The notes under the pieces: model-generated
Seen by the model: only the letters and a program-made list of their open reading frames with translations
Told to the model about the DNA's origin: nothing
The model's database searches: none
Assembly: GCA_018268135.1 (NCBI GenBank)
Contig: JAFDXD010000021.1
Span: 1-45,548 of the forward strand
DNA: 45,548 nt
Reading direction: 5' to 3'
From: Bacteroidota bacterium
GTDB taxonomy: Bacteria; Bacteroidota; Bacteroidia; Chitinophagales; Chitinophagaceae
Program-made: the position numbers and the translations under genes
Shown here: positions 12,970 through 44,946 of the stretch, piece by piece
Layout of the letters: each line of letters begins with the position of its first letter
Numbering within the stretch: the stretch's first letter is position 1

Positions 12970-14412
12970 TTAAAACGAAGCACTTTTAGGATATCTCGGA
13001 AAAGGAATTACATCCCGAATATTGGTCATACCCGTTACAAAAAGCACCAGCCTTTCAAAACCCAGCCCAAAGCCCGCATGTATGCACGACCCAAAACGAC
13101 GGGTATCTAAATAAAAATCAAGTTCTTCAGCAGGAACATTCATTTCCTTCATACGCTGTACCAACTTATCATAGCGTTCTTCTCTTTGGCTGCCTCCAAC
13201 TATTTCGCCAATGCCCGGCGCCAGTATATCCATTGCGGCCACCGTTTTTCCATCATCATTCATCCGCATGTAAAACGATTTTATTTCTTTAGGATAGTCG
13301 GTTAAGATGACGGGTTTTTTAAAATGTTTTTCTACCAGGTAGCGCTCATGTTCGCTTTGCAAATCTGTTCCCCAATTTTCTACCGGGTATTGAAATTTCT
13401 TTTTCTTATTATGATTGCTGTTTTTTAATATATCAATAGCTTCAGTATAAGTAAGCCTTTCAAATTGGTTGTTCACTACAAAATTTAATTTTTCCAGCAG
13501 GCCCATTTCGCTGCGTTCGGCCTGAGGTTTTGTTTTTTCTTCATCTTCCAGACGCTGCGCTAAAAATTCAATATCTTCTTTATTATTTTTTAAAGCATAG
13601 TTAATCACATATTTAATAAACTCCTCTGCCAGGTTCATATTATCTTCCAAATCATTAAAAGCCACTTCGGGCTCTATCATCCAAAACTCAGCCAGGTGGC
13701 GGGCTGTATTGCTGTTTTCGGCTCTAAATGTTGGGCCAAATGTATAAATATCACTATAGGCCATAGCTGCCAGCTCACCTTCTAACTGACCACTAACGGT
13801 AAGGTTTGTACTACGACCAAAAAAATCTTCTTTATAATTTATAGCGCCATCAGCATTTTTTGGAGCGGTACCATCTAAAGGCAGCGTGGTAACTCTAAAC
13901 ATTTCGCCGGCGCCCTCTGCATCGCTTGCCGTAATGATGGGCGTATGCAAATACACAAAACCTTTATCATTAAAAAATTGGTGAATAGCAAAAGCCAGAG
14001 AATGCCTTACCCTAAAAACTGCACCAAAAGTATTGGTACGAAATCTAAGATGAGCAATTTCACGTAAAAACTCAAGCGAGTGTTTTTTAGGTTGAAGCGG
14101 AAACTTTTCAGCATCACTATCGCCCAATATTTCAATGGAAGTTGCTTTTAATTCAATCTTTTGCCCCTTGCCAAGCGAAGCAATAATTTCGCCGGTAGCT
14201 TTTATACAGGCGCCGGTGGTAATGCGTTTAAGCGTAGCATCATCCAGCAGACCAAGCGCTACCACTACCTGCAAATTATTATTAGTGCTCCCATCATTCA
14301 AAGCTATAAACTGGTTGTTTCTAAATGTTCTAACCCACCCCATTACCGTTGCTTCATAATTGGTAGTATCTGCCTGAAGTAAAGCATTGATTTTTGTGCG
14401 CTTGTTGTACAT
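12970..14412 (-). CDS. asnS: Asparagine--tRNA ligase AsnS
   Basis: 480-residue class II aminoacyl-tRNA synthetase charging tRNA(Asn). The N-terminal OB-fold anticodon-binding domain contains [20 protein letters not shown]. Class II motif 2 is seen as [22 protein letters not shown]. The C-terminal motif 3 region is [31 protein letters not shown]. The frame is open upstream to a TTG at 14475, but the ATG at 14412 (MYNKRTKIN) is chosen because TATCTTTG at 14431-14438 lies between the two. Its terminator is directly downstream. Confidence 0.97.
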
Positions 14413-14430
14413 AAAAAATATTTTGGAGTG

Positions 14431-14438
14431 CAAAGATA
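14431..14438 (-). promoter_or_regulatory. -7 box of asnS (TATCTTTG)
   Basis: An exact TAnnTTTG on the minus strand, 18 bases before the ATG at 14412. It decides the asnS start, since the longer frame would begin upstream of the promoter. Confidence 0.6.
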
Positions 14439-14487
14439 AGCCTATTGCGGTTTTTAAAGGAAATACAATTATCAAAAAAATTATTTT

Positions 14488-14564
14488 GGCATTCCCTTCG
14501 GGCCGGGCTATCCGCTACAATCTTTTGTACTCAAAGGCAGCACAAAAGGATTTTCGCTTCTATC
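14488..14564 (-). repeat. Dispersed intergenic repeat, copy C
   Basis: Read on the minus strand, this 77-bp element begins GATAGAAGCG and ends ATGCC, with TTGTAGCGGATAGC in the third quarter. Between these are complementary arms (AATCCTTTTGT and ACAAAAGATT) that form a hairpin. It starts 9 bp after the stop of the TonB-tailed anti-sigma gene and ends about 50 bp before the asnS -7 box. The other copies are at 31777-31857 and 43363-43439. Confidence 0.75.
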
Positions 14565-14573
14565 CCTAATGCA

Positions 14574-15689
14574 TTAAAAGCTCATTGAGTACAAGATGCC
14601 TTTCCCCTTTTTGCCTGGGCGGGCCGGGCTGTTTTTTAATATGCTGATAGCGGCGGCATTACATGGTATGCACGAAGAGCTTACAATAGTTATATTTTCA
14701 GGCTTTCCATTTTTTAATAAGTCAAAAGAAAGCAGCACCATGCCCGAATGTTGTATTGTAGAAGTGTCTTTAAAGTTTTGAACACTTTGAGCAATATAGG
14801 TATCAAACACATCTTTAGCGCCTACAGGAATAGCTTTAGTATTCATATTAATTTTAGATGCCCTTTTGCTTTTATCCACTCCGGCGGCGGATACAACTAC
14901 TTCACTCAAGGCTGCATTATCTTCACTCTTTTTAATATCAGCCGATTTTTTAGTTGATAATATAATATCTTTTTCCCGGTAGCCCTTTGGCGAGGCAGCA
15001 ACAATGCTTTCATCAGTATTTTGTGAAACACTGCCGACGGTATCAGCAATAGCTCTGCTGTTGTTGTTTTTAACTGTAATGCCAGCAGCTACAGTTGGCG
15101 CCACTTCTTTAGCCGCAATTTTATCTGTTAAAACATTTTCTTTTTTATCAAAATGAAGTGCAGCCTTTTGTTCATTTTCTGGCATTTCTGAAGCCGCTAC
15201 AGGAGCTGCAGACTTATCGGTATTATTTTTTGAGGTATTTAAATCATTGCTTTGAGCGGCAGTTTTGTTTTCTACAGGCTCATTTTCATTTTTAGCAACG
15301 GCAGTATTAGCATTGCTATCTTGCAAGGGCAAGGTTTTATTAGTGGCTGTTGAAGCCAGGTTGGTATCTTTTGTGGTATGGTTAAATGTATAAAATAAAA
15401 TTGCGGCACCACTTACAATAATAATAGCTGCTGCAGCACGCCACCAACCTTTATAGGATGAAGAAATAAAAAATACAGCTTTGCTTTTTTGTTTATCTTT
15501 TAAGCGCTCTTTAATATCCTTCACATCTTTTTCGGCATCGGTAGTAAAAGCATAACCCTCTAATGCGTCTGCCAAAAAAGGGTCTTCCAGCGCTGCTTTT
15601 TCCAGCAAATACATTTCTGCCTCAGGCATTTTGCCAGAGTGGTATGCTGCAAAGTCTGCTACGGTATATGTTTTATTGTTATCAGCCAT
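14574..15689 (-). CDS. Anti-sigma-factor-like membrane protein with TonB-like C-terminal domain
   Basis: 371 residues. The N-terminal cytoplasmic part (DFAAYHSGKMPEAEMYLLEKAALEDPFLADALEGY) resembles Bacteroidota anti-sigma or zinc-finger-derived domains. One membrane helix follows (82-102), then a long low-complexity Ala/Asn/Lys/Thr-rich periplasmic spacer (110-290). The C-terminal domain (about 295-371) matches the TonB C-terminal pattern: GMVLLSFDLLKNGKPENITIVSS, then AAISILKNSPARPGKKGKG. An EVVVSAAG stretch in the spacer recalls the start of TonB-receptor plug domains and is similar to one in the neighbouring VWA protein. It starts 1 bp after the sigma gene, so the two are translationally coupled. 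A role as the sigma partner is inference. Confidence 0.65.
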   Translation of the reverse strand: MADNNKTYTVADFAAYHSGKMPEAEMYLLEKAALEDPFLADALEGYAFTTDAEKDVKDIKERLKDKQKSKAVFFISSSYKGWWRAAAAIIIVSGAAILFYTFNHTTKDTNLASTATNKTLPLQDSNANTAVAKNENEPVENKTAAQSNDLNTSKNNTDKSAAPVAASEMPENEQKAALHFDKKENVLTDKIAAKEVAPTVAAGITVKNNNSRAIADTVGSVSQNTDESIVAASPKGYREKDIILSTKKSADIKKSEDNAALSEVVVSAAGVDKSKRASKINMNTKAIPVGAKDVFDTYIAQSVQNFKDTSTIQHSGMVLLSFDLLKNGKPENITIVSSSCIPCNAAAISILKNSPARPGKKGKGILYSMSF

Positions 15690-31183: not shown

Positions 31184-31696
31184 TTATATTTCAAGCATAT
31201 CGCTGTAAGATAATGATTGAAAATCGGAGCTATTAATATTAAAGAAGCTTGCATAATAATTACATTGCTCCGTTATTTTATCAAGCCCGATGCTTCCATA
31301 GGCATCTATAGCTTCTACTTCAATAAAGTTGCCGAGGCCTTTTACTGTATCAAAATGAAATTTTACATTATCAATAAAATAAATGCGGCGGCACTTGTCA
31401 ACTACAATTTTGATGCCGAGGGTTTTTATTAAAATTTGTTTTAAAGTATTATCGGGTTGGTGTTGATATAATAAAATATGCGATTGTTTGCTGCCGGAGA
31501 TATTTGCTCTATCGTACCAGATAAGAGCGTTTTCAATATTGCCTTCTCTAAGTTTTAGCCGGCCTGTGCCGGTATTAAAGTAAGTGTCAAGTTGATGATC
31601 TTCGCCTTTAAAAATGGGGTGTAATGTTTTTAGCTGCTCTTCAAGATGCAGTAAATTGTGTGTAATTGCCTTAAACTCTACATTGAGGTGTGCCAT
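31184..31696 (-). CDS. CYTH domain protein (class IV adenylate cyclase / triphosphatase-like)
   Basis: 170 residues from the ATG at 31696. A longer frame begins with a TTG at 31717, but that TTG is part of a -7 box, so the shorter form is chosen. The N-terminal strand HLNVEFKA is the CYTH entry motif (ExExK, first Glu replaced). TYFNTGTGRLKLREG, KQILIKTLGIKIVVDKCRRIYFIDNVKFHFDTVKGLGNFIEVEAI supply the other tunnel residues. Members hydrolyse or cyclise triphosphates such as thiamine triphosphate or ATP; which applies here cannot be told. Confidence 0.82.
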   Translation of the reverse strand: MAHLNVEFKAITHNLLHLEEQLKTLHPIFKGEDHQLDTYFNTGTGRLKLREGNIENALIWYDRANISGSKQSHILLYQHQPDNTLKQILIKTLGIKIVVDKCRRIYFIDNVKFHFDTVKGLGNFIEVEAIDAYGSIGLDKITEQCNYYASFFNINSSDFQSLSYSDMLEI

Positions 31697-31714
31697 TATA
31701 TTGTTAATTACCTG

Positions 31715-31722
31715 CAAATATA
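31715..31722 (-). promoter_or_regulatory. -7 box of the CYTH gene (TATATTTG)
   Basis: TATATTTG on the minus strand matches TAnnTTTG, 18 bases before the ATG at 31696. It overlaps the alternative TTG start and so argues against it. Confidence 0.55.
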
Positions 31723-31776
31723 AAAGGGTTGGGTATTACTATTGCACAGCAAAGATACATGGCTGAAAAGCAGGCG

Positions 31777-31857
31777 GATAGAAGCGTAAAACCCGGTGAG
31801 GCTATAGTGTTCAGGCTTTTTGTGCCGGATTTGTAGCGGATAGCCGCTACACATGCC
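31777..31857 (+). repeat. Dispersed intergenic repeat, copy A
   Basis: 81 bp on the plus strand. It begins GATAGAAGCGTAAAACCCGG, contains TTGTAGCGGATAGC and ends ATGCC. It can fold through CCCGG (31792-31796) with CCGG at 31825, or with CCGGG just beyond its end. GTAGCGG-ATAG-CCGCTAC forms a second, perfect 7-bp hairpin at 31833-31850. It lies between the divergent CYTH and rho genes. Confidence 0.75.
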
Positions 31858-32071: not shown

Positions 32072-33718
32072 ATGCACGATATATTACAACTGAACGAACT
32101 CCTCGTTCCTGAACTGCTTGATATTGCAGATGAACTGGGTATTTCCAACACCAAAAAATTAAATAAGCAGGATTTAATTACAAAAATCCTGGATAAACAA
32201 ACCATTATGGCTACAGATAAAAAAAGCACCACCGATGAAAAGCCAAAGCGCAAACGTATAGCAAAATCGCCTGCCGAAAATGCGGCCCCGGCTACAGAAG
32301 AAATGCAGCCAGAGTTGCATAAAAAAGAAGGCCCTGTGGTAAAAGCTAAAAAAACTGACCACGAAAAAAAGGTTTCGGTTAAAAAACCACAAGCTGTAGC
32401 AGCCATGGAAGAAGCGCCGGATGATACTGAAGAAGAACTGCTGCCCATTACAGAAGAACAAACCACCATACCTGCTGATATAGCTCAAATGCTGCATGAA
32501 GAAGATGTACAACAGCCTGAATTGTTGCCCGAAGAGCCTTTGCACCAAAACCATCAAAACCGTCAGCAGCACAAAAAAGAACAACCTGTTTTTAATATTG
32601 AATTTGACGGAGTGGTACAGGGCGAGGGTGTGCTTGAAATGATGCCCGATGGCTATGGCTTTTTGCGCAGCAGTGATTATAATTACCTTTCTTCTCCCGA
32701 TGATATTTATGTATCTCCATCTCAAATAAAATTATTTGGATTAAAAACAGGTGATACGGTATTTGGTAGTGTAAGGCCGCCAAAAGAAGGCGAAAAATAT
32801 TTTGCTTTGCTAAAAGTGAATACCATTAATGGCAAATCGCCGGAAGAAGTGAGGGACCGTGTGCCATTTGATTACCTTACACCTTTGTTTCCATTTGAAA
32901 AACTAAACCTTACTACAAAGTCCGATAATTTTAGTACAAGAATAATGGACCTGTTTACTCCAATTGGAAAAGGGCAGCGTGGCTTAATAGTGGCACAGCC
33001 TAAAACGGGTAAAACCATGTTGCTAAAAGAGCTGGCCAATGCAATTGCAGAAAATCATCCTGAGTGTTACTTAATGATAGTGCTGGTAGATGAGCGCCCC
33101 GAAGAGGTAACAGATATGGAGAGAAGTGTAAAAGCAGAAGTAATAGCATCTACCTTTGATGAGCCCGCTGAAAAGCATGTAAAAGTAAGTACCATTGCAT
33201 TGCAAAAAGCAAAACGCCTGGTAGAGTGCGGTCACGATGTGGTGATATTGTTAGACTCTATCACCCGTCTTGCAAGGGCGCACAACACTGTGGCGCCAAG
33301 TAGTGGCAAGGTATTGAGCGGCGGTGTAGAAGCCAATGCTATGCAAAAACCAAAGCAGTTTTTTGGTGCTGCACGCAAAATTGAAAATGGAGGGTCGCTT
33401 ACCATTATAGCTACAGCGCTGGTAGATACAGGTAGTAAAATGGATGAGGTGATTTTTGAAGAATTTAAGGGTACAGGAAATATGGAATTGCAACTTGATC
33501 GCAAACTTTCTAACCGCCGTATTTATCCTGCTATTGATATTGTATCTTCTTCTACAAGGCGGGATGATTTGTTGTTAGACAAAGATATTTTTAAAAGAAT
33601 GTGGATACTGCGTAAACATATTGCAGATATGAACCCCGAAGAGGCATTGAATACCCTTTTGAAAAACATGAAAGGCACAAAAGACAATGCAGAATTTTTG
33701 ACAAGCATGAACGGTTAA
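32072..33718 (+). CDS. rho: Transcription termination factor Rho
   Basis: 548-residue hexameric RNA-dependent ATPase. The N-terminal Rho-N helix domain ([34 protein letters not shown], 6-39) is followed by a long charged Glu/Lys/Gln-rich insertion (45-170) as seen in Bacteroidota. The RNA-binding cold-shock-like domain ([30 protein letters not shown]) comes next. The ATPase core has Walker A PKTGKTM in [27 protein letters not shown], Walker [17 protein letters not shown] and [32 protein letters not shown]. Start is ATG; a strong terminator follows. Confidence 0.98.
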
Positions 33719-33926: not shown

Positions 33927-35165
33927 TTGGCATTTTTAAAAAAATATACAGGCTTATTATTAGTATTTATATTTCCGCTGCAATTATTGGCACAGGATAT
34001 TACCGGTGTGTGGAAGGGCTCCTTTTATGTTGACTCTACCAAAATGACCTTTCCTTTTGAATTATCTATCAGCGAAAACAAAGGCAGGCTTACGGGCTAC
34101 TCCCGCATTTCGTTTGAAGAAAATGGAATACCCCAGGTAGTTTACAGAGATCATAATATAACCAAACAGGGTGATCAATATATTGTTGTAGATAAAAGTG
34201 AAATTACAAAAGCTTCCAGTGTAGAGCAACCCAAAGAGGTAAAGAAAACAATGATAATGTTGCTCTCCATTAAAGACAGTGTAATGACACTGCAAGGCGA
34301 ATGGAGTACCAATAAAACCCGGCGATATTTAGCGGCAAGGGGCACCGTAATGGTACAGCATAAAAATGATTACAGGCAAACGGATATTTTTAAAAAATTA
34401 GCGGAGCTTCATTTGTCCGACGACCTCTCTTTTAATAAGCCGGAAGAAAAACCCGATTTTGTTCTTGCAGCTAAAACAGAATTGCCGCAAGCGAATACTA
34501 TAACCAATAAGAAATCCATAGAAGTTGCATCAAAAGTTTCATCGCCGTCAGTAGCTGTAAAACTGCCATTGCCAGAGCAACCCAGGCAGCCAGAAGTAGT
34601 AAAACCTGCGCCAAAGCCTGCGGTAAAAGCGCCAGCGCCTGTAATTGTAAAAAACACAGCCCCTCCTCCGGTAAAAACAGTAATAACAAAACCGGTAGTG
34701 AAAAATACGGCAGCTCCCATAGTGCCAAAGCCTGTAGTGATAGCATCGGCCCCCAAGCCTGTAGCAGCACAAAACATGGTGTCTGTATCAAAAACTGCAG
34801 CAGTAGAGGTAAATGAAAGAAACAATAGCTCAGTAAAATCTATTTATTACACATCTGATAGCCTGCAACTAACCTTGTACGACAATGGTGAGATAGATGG
34901 AGATACCGTAAGCGTATTGCTCAATGGCAAAGTGATTATTGCTAAGCAAAGGCTCGATATAAAACCTAATGTACACACTATTTATTTTGATAAAGACACT
35001 CCAGACTCTATGATGCTGGTGATGTATGCCGAAAACCTCGGAAGCATACCGCCCAATACCGGCCTGCTGGTAATTCACGATGGCAAAGCGGTTTACGAGG
35101 TGAGGTTTAGTGCAGATTTTAAAACGAATGCAGCCATTATATTACGGCGAAAAAAAAATCAATAA
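33927..35165 (+). CDS. Secreted protein of unknown function, paralogue of the 36855-38309 product
   Basis: 412 residues. Signal peptide cleaved near LLAQ (residue 22). The N-terminal beta-rich domain (DITGVWKGSFYVDSTKMTFPFELSISENKGRLTGYS..., about 23-150) is followed by a Pro/Ala/Val/Lys-rich linker (about 170-295) and a C-terminal beta domain (about 305-410; [26 protein letters not shown]... and [43 protein letters not shown]). The start is TTG at 33927, needed for the signal peptide. I do not recognise a named family. The Asp/Asn-rich DNGEIDGD loop looks like a possible calcium site. It is convergent with the half-MFS gene, 2 bp apart. Confidence 0.75.
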   Translation: MAFLKKYTGLLLVFIFPLQLLAQDITGVWKGSFYVDSTKMTFPFELSISENKGRLTGYSRISFEENGIPQVVYRDHNITKQGDQYIVVDKSEITKASSVEQPKEVKKTMIMLLSIKDSVMTLQGEWSTNKTRRYLAARGTVMVQHKNDYRQTDIFKKLAELHLSDDLSFNKPEEKPDFVLAAKTELPQANTITNKKSIEVASKVSSPSVAVKLPLPEQPRQPEVVKPAPKPAVKAPAPVIVKNTAPPPVKTVITKPVVKNTAAPIVPKPVVIASAPKPVAAQNMVSVSKTAAVEVNERNNSSVKSIYYTSDSLQLTLYDNGEIDGDTVSVLLNGKVIIAKQRLDIKPNVHTIYFDKDTPDSMMLVMYAENLGSIPPNTGLLVIHDGKAVYEVRFSADFKTNAAIILRRKKNQ

Positions 35166-35167
35166 CT

Positions 35168-36876: not shown

Positions 36877-38309
36877 TTATACTGTTATTATGTGTGCCTT
36901 TTAAAATATTTGCACAGCAGGCTACCCTTGCAAATACAGATATTACCGGGCTTTGGAAAGGTACTCTTTACAACGATACTACTAAACAATACTACCGATA
37001 TGAAATAGCCATTAGCAAAGAAAAAGGAAAACTTACAGGCTATTCGCACACCTGGTTTATACTGGATGACAAGCAATATTATGGAGTAAAAAAAGTAAAG
37101 ATTAAAGAAGAAGATGGGAAAATTATTATACAGGATGATGGGCTTATAGCCAACAACTACCCGGTAGCTCCGGCTAAAGGAGTAAAGCAATTAAATATTC
37201 TTGAGCTTAATGCATCTGACAGCCTGATGACATTAACAGGGCCCTTTACTACCAACAGTACAAAAGTGTACAGGCCATTAACAGGGAGCATTTACCTGCA
37301 AAGAAAAAATGATTTTTGGCAATCGGCGCTGGTGCCACATTTAGAAGAGCTTGGGCTGGCAAAAGAATTATCTTTTGTAAAAGATGAAAAAGTGCTTTCA
37401 AGAAACAATGATGTGTACATTACCGTAGCAAAACCCAATAATAAAATGAATGAATCTGCTACCGTATCAACTATTTCGATGGAAAAAAAGGAAATACCCC
37501 TACCAATTATTACATCAAATAATGAAGTTGTAAAAAATGATACTAAAATAAATTCAGCAGCCAATGGGCAACAGGTAACTATTACCACAATAGAAAATAA
37601 TACAAAAACAGAAAAAACCGAAGCTAAAAAAGTAAATAAAAAAGAAGCTACCGTTATAGCACAAACGCAGGCAGAACAAAAAAATAAAATTGAAATAAAG
37701 AATACAAAATCATCAAATATAAAAGAGGGGAAAACTGTGGCAGTGAATAATCCTCAAAAGCCAGCAGCAGCAAAGGCGGTAGCCACTACAACCAATGCTG
37801 AGCAGAAAAATACAGTAATAAAAACGGAAGAAAAATCGCTGCCTGAAAATAAAGTTATTGTGGCTTCTGCCAATACACCCGTTACGCCTGTAATGCCCGT
37901 TTCATCTACTATAACACACGCACAGGAAATAAAAAATATAGCTGCCGCTAAAGAAGTAGATACCCGTAAAACCCTTTTGGAGCAAACCGTATATTTTGCC
38001 TCAGACAGCCTGCAGCTTACCTTGTATGATAATGGTGAAGTAGATGGCGATACCGTAAGTGTATTGATGAATGGAAAAATAATAATGCCAAGGGTGGGAT
38101 TAAGCACCAATGCTGTGAGAAAAACAATTTATATTAATAATGATGAAGATTCTGTGCAATTGGTAATGTATGCAGAAAACCTGGGAAGCATTCCACCTAA
38201 TACAGGCTTGCTGGTAGTAAGAGATGGCAAAGATATTTACGAAATAAGATTTAGTGGCGACTTGCAAAAAAATGCCGCCATCGTTTTCAGGCGAAAGAAA
38301 AATAAATAA
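36855..38309 (+). CDS. Secreted protein of unknown function between mnmH and selD, paralogue of the 33927-35165 product
   Basis: 484 residues. Signal peptide cleaved near IFAQ (residue 21). It has the same architecture as the 412-residue protein: N-terminal domain [37 protein letters not shown], then a long Lys/Asn/Thr/Ala-rich linker (about 185-370), then the C-terminal domain [27 protein letters not shown] and [45 protein letters not shown]. The C-terminal domains are far more alike than the linkers. The ATG lies inside the mnmH 3' end (22-bp overlap) and selD begins 2 bp after its stop. Function unknown; no selenium-binding motif seen. Confidence 0.75.
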
Positions 38310-38311
38310 CC

Positions 38312-41199: not shown

Positions 41200-43317
41200 T
41201 TGAGCAGAAAAATAAACATAGCTTTAGTAGGCAATCCCAATAGCGGCAAGTCGTCTCTTTTCAATGCACTCACAGGCCTTAATCAAAAAGTAGGAAACTT
41301 TCCCGGGGTAACGGTAGATAAAAAAACAGGCCAAGCCTCCATATCCGACACCTGTACAGCAAATATTATAGACCTGCCCGGCACATACAGCCTATATCCT
41401 AAGCGGGCAGACGAGTGGGTGGCATACAAAGTATTATTGCAGCAGGATGAAAAAATAAAACCCGATATGGTGGTATTGGTGGCAGATGCCAGCAGCCTTA
41501 AAAGAAACCTTTTATTTTGCTCACAAATTATAGATCTTAAAATACCGCTGGTTATAGCTTTTACTATGATGGACCTTGCCAATAAAAAAGGCACTCACAT
41601 AGATATACCCGGCCTGGAAAGAGAGTTAGGCGTACCCATTGTAGCAATAAACCCCCGGAAAAATAAAGGAATCCCACAATTAAAAAAAGCCATTAGCCTT
41701 ATTGCTGATAACCTCGAGCTTTTGCCTGCAAGAGAATTTATTAATACCTCTATGCTGGCAAATGATGCCGTAAGCGATGTAAAAAATATGTTTCCGGGCA
41801 TCAGCAATTATGCGGCCATACATTATTTAATCAATCATGAGTCGTTTACATTAACACAGGCACAGCAGGATGCAGTAGAGCAAATAGAGGCCGACCATAA
41901 ATTTAATCCCACTAAAACGCAGGCCGAAGAAATTGTGCAGCGTTACAGCCGCATCAAGCATGTAATGCAACAAACCATTGTAGAAAATGACCCCCTGCAA
42001 AAAGCATTGTTCAGCGAAAAATTAGATAAAATATTGCTGCACCGTACCTGGGGATATATAATTTTATTGGTAGTATTGTTTTTAATTTTTCAATCGGTAT
42101 TTTTTGTAGCACAATACCCCATGAATGCCATTGAGTGGAGCTTTGGGCAGCTTGCAGGCTGGCTTACGGCTACCATGCCATCCGGTTGGTTTAGCGATTT
42201 ATTTATTAATGGTATTGTAGCAGGCCTAAGCGGTATCATGCTTTTTGTGCCGCAAATAATGATTTTATTTGGCTTCATTACCCTGCTGGAAGATACAGGC
42301 TATATGGCCCGAATTAGTTTTCTAACGGATAAGCTTATGCGAAAAGTAGGGCTCAATGGTAAAAGTGTAATGCCCATGATAAGCGGCTTTGCCTGTGCTG
42401 TGCCGGCCATCATGAGCGCCAGAAATATTGAGAATAAAAAAGAGCGCCTCCTCACTATTATGATCACGCCGCTCATGAGCTGTAGCGCCCGCCTCCCTGT
42501 TTACACCATTTTAATTGCCCTGGTAATCCCTTCAAAATTATACTTTGGTTTCTTAAGCCTGCAAGGCCTTGTAATGATGGGGCTTTACCTCTTAGGTACT
42601 GTACTGGCGCTATTGGTGGCATGGGTTATGAAATTTTTTATCAAAAGCAAAGAGCGAAGTTTTTTTATACTGGAGCTACCCGTGTACCGCGGCCCCCGCT
42701 GGAAAAACGTAGCAGTAACCATGGTAGAAAAAGCAAAAATATTTGTATTAGATGCCGGTAAAGTCATTATGGTTATCAGCCTTATCCTTTGGGCATTAAG
42801 TACCTACGGCCCTTCACAAAAAATGGCAGCCGTTACAGCAAAGTACGATGCATTAGAGCATCAATACCCCACGCAGGCAAAAGAATTGCAAAAACAACGC
42901 AGCACGGCACTCCTGCAAAATTCGTATGCAGGCACACTTGGCAAAGCTATTGAGCCCGCCATAAAGCCCCTTGGCTACGATTGGAAAATAGGCATTGCCC
43001 TTATCACTTCTTTTGCAGCCAGGGAAGTATTTGTTGGCACCATGGCCACCCTCTACAGCGTAGGCGATGATGATAACAACAGCAGCACCCTCCGGCAAAA
43101 AATGCTGGCAGCACGTAGAGATGACGGCACCCCGGTTTATACCTTAGCAGCAGGCATGTCACTGTTAATTTTTTACGTAATAGCCATGCAATGCATGAGC
43201 ACATTGGCCATTGTAAAGCGTGAAACCCGAAGCTGGAAATGGCCCATCATACAATTTACATACATGACCGGCCTGGCATACCTAATGAGCCTGCTGGTTT
43301 ACCAGGTATTAAAATAA
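41200..43317 (+). CDS. feoB: Ferrous iron transport protein FeoB
   Basis: 705-residue inner-membrane Fe(II) transporter with an N-terminal GTPase domain. G1 is GNPNSGKS (11-18), followed by the switch GNFPGVTVDKKTG and G3 DLPGTYSL (58-65). The G4 position reads TMMD (122-125), so the usual Asn of NxxD is Thr, which may alter guanine recognition. A helical spacer precedes the transmembrane core with two Gate regions (GFACAVPAIMSARNI and SCSARLPVYTILIALVIP, later AAREVFVGTMATLYSVG). Start is TTG at 41200, needed for the G1 strand. FeoA is encoded 38 kb away. Copy B of the dispersed repeat follows. Confidence 0.95.
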   Translation: MSRKINIALVGNPNSGKSSLFNALTGLNQKVGNFPGVTVDKKTGQASISDTCTANIIDLPGTYSLYPKRADEWVAYKVLLQQDEKIKPDMVVLVADASSLKRNLLFCSQIIDLKIPLVIAFTMMDLANKKGTHIDIPGLERELGVPIVAINPRKNKGIPQLKKAISLIADNLELLPAREFINTSMLANDAVSDVKNMFPGISNYAAIHYLINHESFTLTQAQQDAVEQIEADHKFNPTKTQAEEIVQRYSRIKHVMQQTIVENDPLQKALFSEKLDKILLHRTWGYIILLVVLFLIFQSVFFVAQYPMNAIEWSFGQLAGWLTATMPSGWFSDLFINGIVAGLSGIMLFVPQIMILFGFITLLEDTGYMARISFLTDKLMRKVGLNGKSVMPMISGFACAVPAIMSARNIENKKERLLTIMITPLMSCSARLPVYTILIALVIPSKLYFGFLSLQGLVMMGLYLLGTVLALLVAWVMKFFIKSKERSFFILELPVYRGPRWKNVAVTMVEKAKIFVLDAGKVIMVISLILWALSTYGPSQKMAAVTAKYDALEHQYPTQAKELQKQRSTALLQNSYAGTLGKAIEPAIKPLGYDWKIGIALITSFAAREVFVGTMATLYSVGDDDNNSSTLRQKMLAARRDDGTPVYTLAAGMSLLIFYVIAMQCMSTLAIVKRETRSWKWPIIQFTYMTGLAYLMSLLVYQVLK

Positions 43318-43362
43318 TTTTTTTTAGAAGAATTAAAGAAGCCCGGCCAACCAACCATTACT

Positions 43363-43439
43363 GGCATTGGTCCCGCTATACGCTTCAAGTACGGCGCAAG
43401 CCCCACGCACCGGGCCTCACCGGGCTTTACGCTTCTATC
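43363..43439 (-). repeat. Dispersed intergenic repeat, copy B
   Basis: 77 bp read on the minus strand: begins GATAGAAGCGTAAAGCCCGG, contains TTGAAGCGTATAGC and ends ATGCC. AAGCCC near its start can pair with GGGCTT inside it, or with CCGGGCTT just past its end (43340-43347). It fills the GC-rich part of the 258-bp gap between convergent feoB and hemN. Copies A and C share both ends and the third-quarter motif. Confidence 0.75.
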
Positions 43440-43575
43440 GGGGCTAAAAATATCGGCAGCAACAAGCGCCCCGGCAGCAAAAAATCGTTTACCCCTTAGC
43501 GTTATATTTTTCCGAAGGCGGTATTTGCTTTTACAAATAATTTCCGGAGCCTGTTCAAATAAACTACATTCTTTT

Positions 43576-44946
43576 TTATATAGCCTTACTATATTGATGT
43601 GTATTATTATTTATTTCATGTGCCCTTAGCAAATGCAAGTCAAAAGCACTGCAAATATTCCTTAAAAAATTTCTTCCCAGCTCTGTTACTATCAACCCCG
43701 ATTCATCAAACTCAATTAAGTTGTCCTCTTTTAATTTTTTTAATTCATCAAAACTATATTGCTTTAGCAATGGTAAATGTTCTTTACAAAAAGAAGTTTT
43801 GCCCTGGCACGAAATATCTAAAATATATTGACGAAATGCTGCGTCTTCCTCATTCAAAAAATATCCTTTTGCTATGGGAAACTCATTTTTATTGATGGAT
43901 GCATAATACTCATGTATGGTTTTATGATTTTGAGCAAACCCAAAACCAACATCACTTATACTTGATACACCCAGGCCTAATAGCAGTTGCGTTTTTTGAG
44001 TGGTATATCCCATAAAATTTCTATGTAGCCAGCCTTCTTTCCAGGCGCTGTATAGGCTGTCAGTACTTAACGAAAAATGATCCATGCCAATATCTGAATA
44101 CCCGTTTTTTGTAAACAACTCTTTACCGGTTTGATATAATTTCATTTTATCATCGGCCGAAGGAAGGTCGCTCTCATCAAACAAACGCTGCCCCCTACTG
44201 GCCCAGGGCACATGTGCATAGCTGTAAAATGCTATCCGGTCGGGTTGTAAACTAATAGATTGCAATACCGTTTGCTCAATACTTTTTACTGTTTGCAGCG
44301 GAAGCCCGTATATCAAATCAAAATTTACAGAATGATAGCCCACCTCTCTTGCTATTTGTACCGCTTGTTGTACATTTTCAAATGGCTGTATGCGGTTAAT
44401 AATTTGCTGTACTTTAATATCATGATCCTGTACACCAAAACTTATTCTTCTAAAGCCAAGATTATACAAAGTTTCTAAATGCTCCCTGGTTGTATTGTTG
44501 GGGTGGCCTTCTATTCCAAACTCGTGCTTGTGGTGTATGATGCTATTTTTGAAAATTCCCTGTAAAAGGGTTTGTAAATTTTGGGGCGAAAAAAAAGTTG
44601 GCGTTCCACCTCCTAAGTGCAACTCACGAATGATGGGCTTTTTGCCCATGATGGCAACATACATTTCCCATTCTTTTATAATGGTTTGTAAGTAGCGTGT
44701 TTCTACAGAATGATTGGTGGTTATTTTTTTATTGCAACCGCAGTATGTACAAAGCGATTCACAAAAAGGTAAATGAATATACAAACTAATGCCTTCGGCC
44801 AGGTTGTGTTTTAAAAACTCTTGTTTAAATAATTGCAACCATTTTGAAACATCAATGCCGTTAGTCCAAATTGGTACCGTAGGATAACTTGTGTACCGGG
44901 GTACGGGTACATTATATTTTTTTAAAAGGTCAAAATCAATTTGCAT
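43576..44946 (-). CDS. hemN: Oxygen-independent coproporphyrinogen III oxidase HemN
   Basis: 456-residue radical SAM enzyme that decarboxylates coproporphyrinogen III without oxygen in heme synthesis. Cluster motif Cys62-xxx-Cys66-xx-Cys69 with the following Cys71 (LYIHLPFCESLCTYCGCNK) is the HemN form, not the HemW form. PRYTSYPTVP near the N-terminus, ELHLGGGTPTFF (SAM-binding), GIEGHPN, RISFGVQDHDIKVQQIINRIQ, LIYGLPLQT and MDHFSL also match. ATG start, with a TAACTTTG -7 box 17 bases upstream. It is convergent with feoB. Confidence 0.96.
   Translation of the reverse strand: MQIDFDLLKKYNVPVPRYTSYPTVPIWTNGIDVSKWLQLFKQEFLKHNLAEGISLYIHLPFCESLCTYCGCNKKITTNHSVETRYLQTIIKEWEMYVAIMGKKPIIRELHLGGGTPTFFSPQNLQTLLQGIFKNSIIHHKHEFGIEGHPNNTTREHLETLYNLGFRRISFGVQDHDIKVQQIINRIQPFENVQQAVQIAREVGYHSVNFDLIYGLPLQTVKSIEQTVLQSISLQPDRIAFYSYAHVPWASRGQRLFDESDLPSADDKMKLYQTGKELFTKNGYSDIGMDHFSLSTDSLYSAWKEGWLHRNFMGYTTQKTQLLLGLGVSSISDVGFGFAQNHKTIHEYYASINKNEFPIAKGYFLNEEDAAFRQYILDISCQGKTSFCKEHLPLLKQYSFDELKKLKEDNLIEFDESGLIVTELGRNFLRNICSAFDLHLLRAHEINNNTHQYSKAI

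Follow-up and report, generated by a model that had tools for sequence, protein, structure and literature searches.

Flavo-1 (RF01705), a dispersed hairpin family of Bacteroidota chromosomes that may be recognised as folded single-stranded DNA

The DNA analysed here, hereafter the window, is a stretch of 45,548 nucleotides from a Bacteroidota bacterium of the family Chitinophagaceae (contig JAFDXD010000021.1), and it carries three copies of a dispersed repeat, set between tandem, divergent and convergent genes for copies 1, 2 and 3, respectively, as judged from open reading frames (ORFs) and Pfam domains (Table 1). All three are members of a known Rfam family, RF01705 Flavo-1. In a cmscan search two of them exceed the gathering cut-off of 42 bits (14497-14574, minus strand, 62.1 bits; 43365-43449, minus strand, 47.7 bits), and the match at 31775-31846 on the plus strand, with 26.3 bits, falls below it. 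A second covariance model, R2, was made from alignment A2, which holds 26 copies from elsewhere in the same genome and excludes those of the window; up to an E-value of 10 it finds these three places and none besides, with E-values of 2e-22 for copy 3, 2.2e-17 for copy 2 and 5.3e-12 for copy 1 (here 14497-14577), so that the family in the window lies far beyond chance. The preliminary description of this DNA had located three repeats of 77-81 bp at these places, and cmscan and R2 bear it out. The common start GATAGAAGCG and the paired arms AATCCTTTTG and CAAAAGATT are as it states; the length given was too short, since the similarity between copies extends about 35 nt or more past the hairpin on each side. 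In copy 1 the ATGCC end that it reported is not a fixed terminus; it belongs to an outer stem, P1, whose 5′ strand GCATT (14568-14572) pairs with the 3′ strand AATGC (14489-14493) at this end. Elsewhere in the window, 34845-35166 and 37992-38310 are diverged direct repeats, 75-79% identical and 3.1 kb apart, which suggests a tandem gene duplication.

Table 1. Flavo-1 copies, parts of them and neighbouring genes in the window (positions counted from its first letter)
Feature	Position	Strand	Remark	Basis
Flavo-1 copy 1, AT-rich subtype	14489..14572	-	outer stem to outer stem	cmscan, R2, fold
Outer stem P1, 5′ strand (GCATT), copy 1	14568..14572	-		ssDNA fold; family-wide P1 test
Outer stem P1, 3′ strand (AATGC), copy 1	14489..14493	-		ssDNA fold; family-wide P1 test
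TonB_C-domain gene	14574..15689	-	neighbour of copy 1	ORFs and Pfam
AsnS-like gene	12970..14475	-	neighbour of copy 1	ORFs and Pfam
Flavo-1 copy 2	31765..31854	+	below the Rfam cut-off	R2, E 2.2e-17; Rfam, 26.3 bits
CYTH-domain gene	31184..31717	-	neighbour of copy 2; divergent genes	ORFs and Pfam
rho	32072..33718	+	neighbour of copy 2; divergent genes	ORFs and Pfam
Flavo-1 copy 3, GC-rich subtype	43365..43449	-		cmscan, 47.7 bits; R2, E 2e-22
Right end of copy 3 (GGGCTTC)	43338..43344	-	proposed outer-stem 3′ strand, partner AGCC in left arm	read from alignment; family-wide test
feoB	41200..43317	+	neighbour of copy 3; convergent genes	ORFs and Pfam
Radical-SAM gene	43576..44946	-	neighbour of copy 3; convergent genes	ORFs and Pfam

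Flavo-1 is dispersed through the chromosomes of some Bacteroidota. The window's own genome (3.27 Mb in 166 contigs) has at least 59 matches to the Rfam model at E ≤ 1, at least 31 of them over the cut-off (150 of 816 candidates scored), and at least 77 matches to R2 at E ≤ 4.8e-7 (150 of 471 candidates scored), so the further copies beyond chance on which the preliminary description had staked its claim do exist. Its impression that similar strings occur in other Bacteroidota was likewise correct: 48 of 392 genomes sampled from the phylum contain a match at E ≤ 1e-7 (up to 11 candidates scored per genome), many of them belonging to a single genus, g40. In a separate set of 59 genomes, the window's own included, 24 have a match at E ≤ 0.001 (up to 66 candidates scored per genome). 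At that threshold the count ranges from 0 to 56 per genome within the window's genus, a genome from another family of the order has 63, and copy number is therefore patchy even within one genus. In G427, a genome of g40, 41 matches reach E ≤ 0.001, and 38 of these exceed the cut-off; this genus is probably Flavobacterium, judging from the folE protein of G427, which is 89-100% identical to its counterparts in 80 loci whose titles name Flavobacterium or Flavobacteria(ceae). Viral contigs searched with two exact Flavo-1 patterns gave no match, a single 111-base blastn query against plasmid and phage collections retrieved no copy, and carriage by phage or plasmid was rejected on these empty searches. 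Five of the G427 copies (L100, L103, L111, L113 and L115) stand after near-identical long repeats (98% over at least 1.3 kb), which we take to be the ends of rRNA operons.

Aligned copies share a fixed order of parts, the 5′ arm being composed of P1, P2, GAT n GnA nn Gnn and the inner stem, and the 3′ arm of the inner stem, nnA nn GnA n AGC, P2′, a spacer and P1′. In A2 the columns that do not vary are GAT, G, A, G and one C in the 5′ arm and A, G, A and AGC in the 3′ arm; they amount to purine mismatches, A·G and GnA/GnA, together with two fixed pairs and one C, and the pairing letters n vary. Of the 97 copies that could be parsed, out of 108, 94 have A·G at the first mismatch, 2 have G·A and one is a misparse; the T-A pair beside this mismatch is replaced by C-G in three. 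Of 284 cells in A2, 98.2% are paired; 69 have changed on both sides, one on one side only, and 5 are unpaired. The resulting covariation score of 0.672 compares with 0.179 for shuffled alignments, none of 500 reaching the observed value, and with at most 0.115 for slid partners. The covarying arms and the selection on a hairpin that the preliminary description had proposed are upheld by these figures, and the conserved secondary structure with covariation expected of a member of RF01705 is present in A2. Such two-sided change with almost no intermediates is also what could be left by functionless quasi-palindromes that are kept perfect by arm-to-arm correction, through template switching in replication. 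That process should erase mismatches, yet A·G and GnA/GnA are (nearly) invariant, and the dispersal of copies with shared flanks also speaks against it; we regard this explanation as very improbable.

The element is longer than the Rfam model, outside which the outer stem P1 lies. When the left arm of 69 copies was compared with the right flank of the same copy, the mean longest complement was 4.13 against 3.67 in shuffled pairings (s.d. 0.11), and none of 500 shuffles was as high; an individual match 3 to 5 bases long is often due to chance. P1 thus covaries and is newly described here. In an informal comparison (79 of 89 copies parsed, 72 after removal of duplicated loci), the first 35 nt to either side of the hairpin have a mean identity of 0.42-0.44 within the window's genome and within G427 and of 0.37 between the two; on the left the similarity is at background from 45 nt on, and on the right in the window's genome it keeps to 0.42 as far as 73 nt and has dropped to background by 90. 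The Flavo-1 unit is therefore roughly 150 bp long with lineage-specific flanks, again a new observation. The DNA beyond the right end is significantly but modestly enriched in A, with a fraction of 0.44 against 0.32 (39 of 56 copies, P 0.04) and of 0.51 against 0.30 (23 of 26, P 0.001). When folds were computed for single-stranded DNA, copy 1 gave the family structure together with the outer stem at -12.7 kcal/mol (z -2.0), compared with -7.4 (z 0.2) for its complement, and copy 3 reaches -16.6 (z -1.3) against -11.4, so that the Flavo-1 strand is preferred in both, with modest z-scores; copy 2 adopts a different structure, at -16.0 on both strands alike.

The family is already known and has been classified as RNA. 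Rfam gives its type as "Gene; sRNA", and Table 1 of the study by Weinberg et al. (2010; PMC2864571) marks Flavo-1 as "y" for RNA and "n" for cis-regulatory; a review includes RF01705 among abundant small-RNA families (PMC9029176). That Flavo-1 is a structured RNA, either an independent sRNA or a cis-acting transcript element that acts after transcription, is a reading that the strong covariation favours. The pair statistics speak otherwise. In 116 copies, chosen by unpaired anchors only (from 136 hits, of which 17 unparsed and 3 duplicates were dropped), the 1160 cells comprise 1126 Watson-Crick pairs, 7 G·T, 7 A·C and 20 others, and the eight variable pairs alone (928 cells) comprise 906 Watson-Crick, 6 G·T, 7 A·C and 9 others. 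As a control, SRP RNA (RF04183) was taken from the family that holds G427, where 41 of 41 genomes have a match, and among the 30 of 43 listed SRP matches that were used, the seven variable pairs (210 cells) comprise 178 Watson-Crick, 24 G·U, no A·C and 8 others. RNA-like wobble, a usual property of sRNAs rather than a formal criterion, is accordingly not seen at the variable pairs of Flavo-1. Given that RNA tolerates G·U and that G·T is here as rare as A·C, covariation with hardly any wobble points to a DNA hairpin and suggests that the folded DNA strand, rather than an RNA copy of it, is the selected form. This comparison sets a single-copy gene sampled across genera beside Flavo-1 copies pooled within and between genomes, and the low wobble of Flavo-1 could partly come from recent duplication of perfect copies or from homogenisation. 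A further 13 of 19 new copies could be parsed and gave 117 cells with 105 Watson-Crick, 4 G·T and 8 others, nine of these cells (3 G·T, 6 others) coming from three copies that are, by inspection, one base out of register. As for other RNA controls, 6S-Flavo had one match, below the cut-off, in 59 genomes, and tRNAs were dropped because few lie within the loci.

Transcription data and gene context bear on the same question. In the passages of a Flavobacterium psychrophilum transcriptome study that concern Flavo-1, several transcribed 5′ regions overlap hits, which favours an RNA, and hits are also said to be indistinctly sense or antisense, with many outside transcribed regions, which does not (PMC9723704). 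For the window's genome, neighbours of 59 copies were called with a rough ORF heuristic and oriented to the element: both are minus in 20 cases and both plus in 12, the -+ arrangement occurs 11 times and the +- arrangement 7 times, and nine have one side unknown. The heuristic misplaced copy 2 of the window between two minus genes, where Pfam has rho on the plus strand. By the same rough calls, ORFs of at least 300 nt overlap 5 of the 59 copies. The dispersed, intergenic family of the preliminary description is supported, in that most copies are intergenic. The gene on the 3′ side is sense in 29 and antisense in 29 of the 58 called, that on the 5′ side is minus in 32 and plus in 19, and 30 loci of G427 are mixed as well (++ 10, -- 8, +- 7, -+ 5). 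Flavo-1 is hence without clear orientation bias relative to genes, and the consistent position after genes that had been suspected is not supported. Nor was a bias seen relative to replication in G427, where a hand count with the origin assumed at coordinate 0 gave 23 against 18 of 41, so an IS200-like lagging-strand mechanism is not favoured. By eye, several right ends in the window's genome lie a few bases past a run of T that itself comes after the opposing gene's stop codon, and at L034, L051 and L052 the element comes after terminator-like hairpins.

One gene did recur. Copy 1 lies upstream of a gene for a class II tRNA synthetase (D/K/N, Pfam) that we name AsnS-like; an asnS match is present in 28 of 30 Flavo-1-positive genomes, and in 9 of the 28, besides G427 and the window, Flavo-1 is directly upstream, on the strand of the gene in all nine. 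This shared orientation favours a structured RNA. By eye, TAnnTTTG, which we take to be a promoter-like motif, stands between Flavo-1 and asnS in these cases, so that Flavo-1 would not be a leader, and the idea of an asnS leader or riboswitch was rejected. As asnS was chosen post hoc, no functional conclusion is drawn from it. At L264 (genome G319) an apparently decayed Flavo-1 remnant was noticed by eye before the same promoter sequence (12.3 bits, E 0.81, with the model R1 described below). In blastp comparisons among the ORFs of 112 loci, the overlap consisted of rRNA-operon repeats, asnS in three genomes and common families (ABC transporter, glycosyltransferase and one more pair), about what chance would give by our own estimate, and a recurrent partner gene was rejected. 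Taking the pair statistics, the strand data and the separation from asnS together with the points in its favour, we consider a structured RNA improbable.

How the element behaves over time can be followed at orthologous spacers. R1, a covariance model from 18 copies of G427, gave 47 hits when 80 loci were scanned, and the spacer between folE and cysS was compared in 80 rows (79 loci and G427; L162 is without cysS). Flavo-1 occupies 28 of them, 36 have a spacer of more than 400 bases, and 16 have neither. Mapped onto a tree built from both flanking genes, the distribution of Flavo-1 takes 19 changes, of which strong branches force no fewer than 14, compared with 23.5 on average when labels are shuffled (14 of 500 shuffles as few as 19), and the events may be fewer than 19 because flanking genes can recombine. 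The long spacers hold ORFs of the 23S_rRNA_IVP type (38 hits, spread over 37 loci and confined to this site), and these cassettes alternate with Flavo-1, from which we make no causal claim. Two kinds of such ORFs (PF05635) were noticed among L126-L205 (e.g., L126:10768-11121 and L135:10710-11096), in spacers rich in inverted repeats, the same spacer holding Flavo-1 in other species. Six pairs of relatives were compared. In the four pairs whose members disagree in Flavo-1 or IVP at a site, one entire spacer stands in place of another between flanks about 82-97% identical; no clean empty site or target duplication was found among the spacers compared. A second spacer contains Flavo-1 in 12 of 64 loci by pattern and in 13 by R1. 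In one pair of close relatives, the spacer after cysS (L195:12295-12515, L200:12659-12823) is wholly different between flanking genes about 96-98% identical, one version with Flavo-1 and the other unrelated and palindrome-like. In the 22 of 28 folE-cysS copies that were parsed, the ten pairs together give 216 Watson-Crick, 3 G·T and 1 A·C; the pair N4 is A-T in 9, G-C in 8 and T-A in 5, is never mismatched and changed 8 times on the tree. Some of this variation arises because the site is occupied by different subtypes of Flavo-1.

Escherichia coli REP/BIME elements have been proposed as sites for a chromosome-organising or supercoiling protein. By analogy, Flavo-1 might be a fixed DNA site for such a protein, kept where it is useful and exchanged by recombination between strains with no dedicated enzyme. 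The long retention of its structure at orthologous spacers, replacement of whole spacers instead of clean insertion, recurrence upstream of asnS, and the lack of a transposase beside the copies in the loci checked would all agree with this. Its gain and loss at folE-cysS are fast, however (19 changes on 80 rows), it is missing from many members of the same genus, and unrelated loci share lineage-specific flanks; we judge a fixed site unlikely. The preliminary description had also allowed for a mobile element, and here the outcome is divided, dispersal and lineage-specific flanks being in accord with mobility and the missing empty site and target duplication counting against it.

Its further proposal, an association with a REP-type transposase, found no support. 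The domain Y1_Tnp has 3 matches in the window's genome and 52 in 15 Flavo-1-rich genomes, and none in G331, which has many Flavo-1 copies. Across the 59 genomes mentioned above, the counts of Y1_Tnp and of Flavo-1 have no relation visible by eye. Within up to 1.5 kb on each side of 33 Y1_Tnp loci (30 of the 52 and the 3), no Flavo-1 reaches the gathering threshold, and R1 yields one hit at E 2.1. The two intact Y1_Tnp proteins of the window's genome are of IS200 type (NCBIfam) and score far short of the REP-transposase cut-off. For the loci checked, the idea that RAYT or IS200 transposases accompany Flavo-1 was rejected, and in 112 loci around copies no transposase-like gene recurs. Several other hairpins came to light in this search. 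A degraded transposase-like gene at L033 (contig C49 of the window's genome, 234-437 and upstream), with motifs NHVH, WQ and YLHQNP, is preceded by a palindrome, GCGCAAGTG...CACTTGTG, that is not Flavo-1; the gene resembles subclass 2.6 as that type is described in PMC6006769. At L031:809-870, tandem palindromes CAACGGAATATATTCCGTTG stand close to an IS200-type gene with the Y---Q--HH pattern, and an Acido-Lenti-1 RNA (RF01687) scores exactly at the cut-off at L073:1893-1938, beside a Y1_Tnp gene; this computational "RNA" might be a transposase-linked hairpin.

We propose that Flavo-1 is a dispersed chromosomal DNA hairpin whose folded single strand is recognised in the manner of REP or attC sites, and we think this somewhat probable. 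The functional form would be one DNA strand of the non-coding element of about 150 bp, folded on itself, in which strict Watson-Crick steps alternate with the invariant purine mismatches, the inner stem has a bulged or mismatched position and the outer stem closes the structure. A putative protein would recognise the folded strand, as RAYT transposases do REPs and integron integrases do attC, and copies would be spread or exchanged among the intergenic spacers of the chromosome. Selection on folded DNA over RNA, a protein that reads single-stranded DNA, and duplicative spread are thus what we infer. Against this proposal stand the lack of a clean empty site, target duplication or mobilising gene, the deviant fold of copy 2 with its equal strands, the uniform orientation beside asnS, and the transcribed 5′ regions coinciding with hits in the transcriptome passages cited above (PMC9723704). 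A bolder version, which we advance tentatively and with more doubt than belief, is that Flavo-1 founds a class of chromosomal single-stranded DNA hairpins, rods in which purine loops of the G·A type divide short Watson-Crick steps, that are moved or exchanged among intergenic spacers by a non-Y1 enzyme encoded away from the copies, the RNA annotation being wrong. If folded DNA is what matters, RF01705 should be taken out of RNA catalogues, and a repeat that is common in bacteria akin to Flavobacterium would become a handle on a DNA-folding, recombination or chromosome-organising system. Comparing how often G·T and A·C occur at variable pairs, alongside an RNA control from the same clade, is cheap and can be applied to other "RNA" families known from computation only. 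The reading as a DNA element is a new claim, not stated in the sections on Flavo-1 of PMC2864571, PMC9723704 and PMC9029176.

Comparison with known systems places Flavo-1 as follows. It is the same family as RF01705, whose 76-position core omits the outer stem and the flanks and whose model misses many copies of the window's genome (at least 31 over the cut-off against at least 77 with R2); the sRNA type is disfavoured by the pair statistics. Integron attC sites have conserved ends and a variable, self-complementary middle, and one folded strand is recognised, unpaired bases being the mark; R and L boxes, an integrase gene and a cassette array further define them. Flavo-1 also has conserved ends and a self-complementary middle and may likewise be recognised on one strand by its unpaired bases, but as far as seen it is dispersed singly and not in cassette arrays. 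MITEs are short, non-coding, multi-copy and lineage-specific, with inverted ends. Flavo-1 is similarly short, non-coding, multi-copy and lineage-specific, its outer stem being a candidate for inverted ends; it differs in that no target duplication or parent transposon was found and in that its pairing and mismatches are kept over long divergence. With REPs and their TnpA_REP (RAYT) transposases it has in common short, imperfect, dispersed hairpins that would act at the level of DNA and form lineage-specific copy families. According to PMC6006769, REP transposases are Y1, HuH enzymes and the REP foot criterion is GT[AG]G, although subclasses 2.6 and 3 are also without it, and subclass 2.6 of Bacteroidetes has "atypical secondary structures". 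No GT[AG]G foot is among the A2 invariant columns of Flavo-1 and none of the 33 Y1_Tnp loci checked has a copy, where REPs would flank tnpA_REP (G331 has many copies and no Y1_Tnp). With these two hallmarks of REPs not found, Flavo-1 would be filed under neither name, and by analogy it may nevertheless work as REP or attC sites do.
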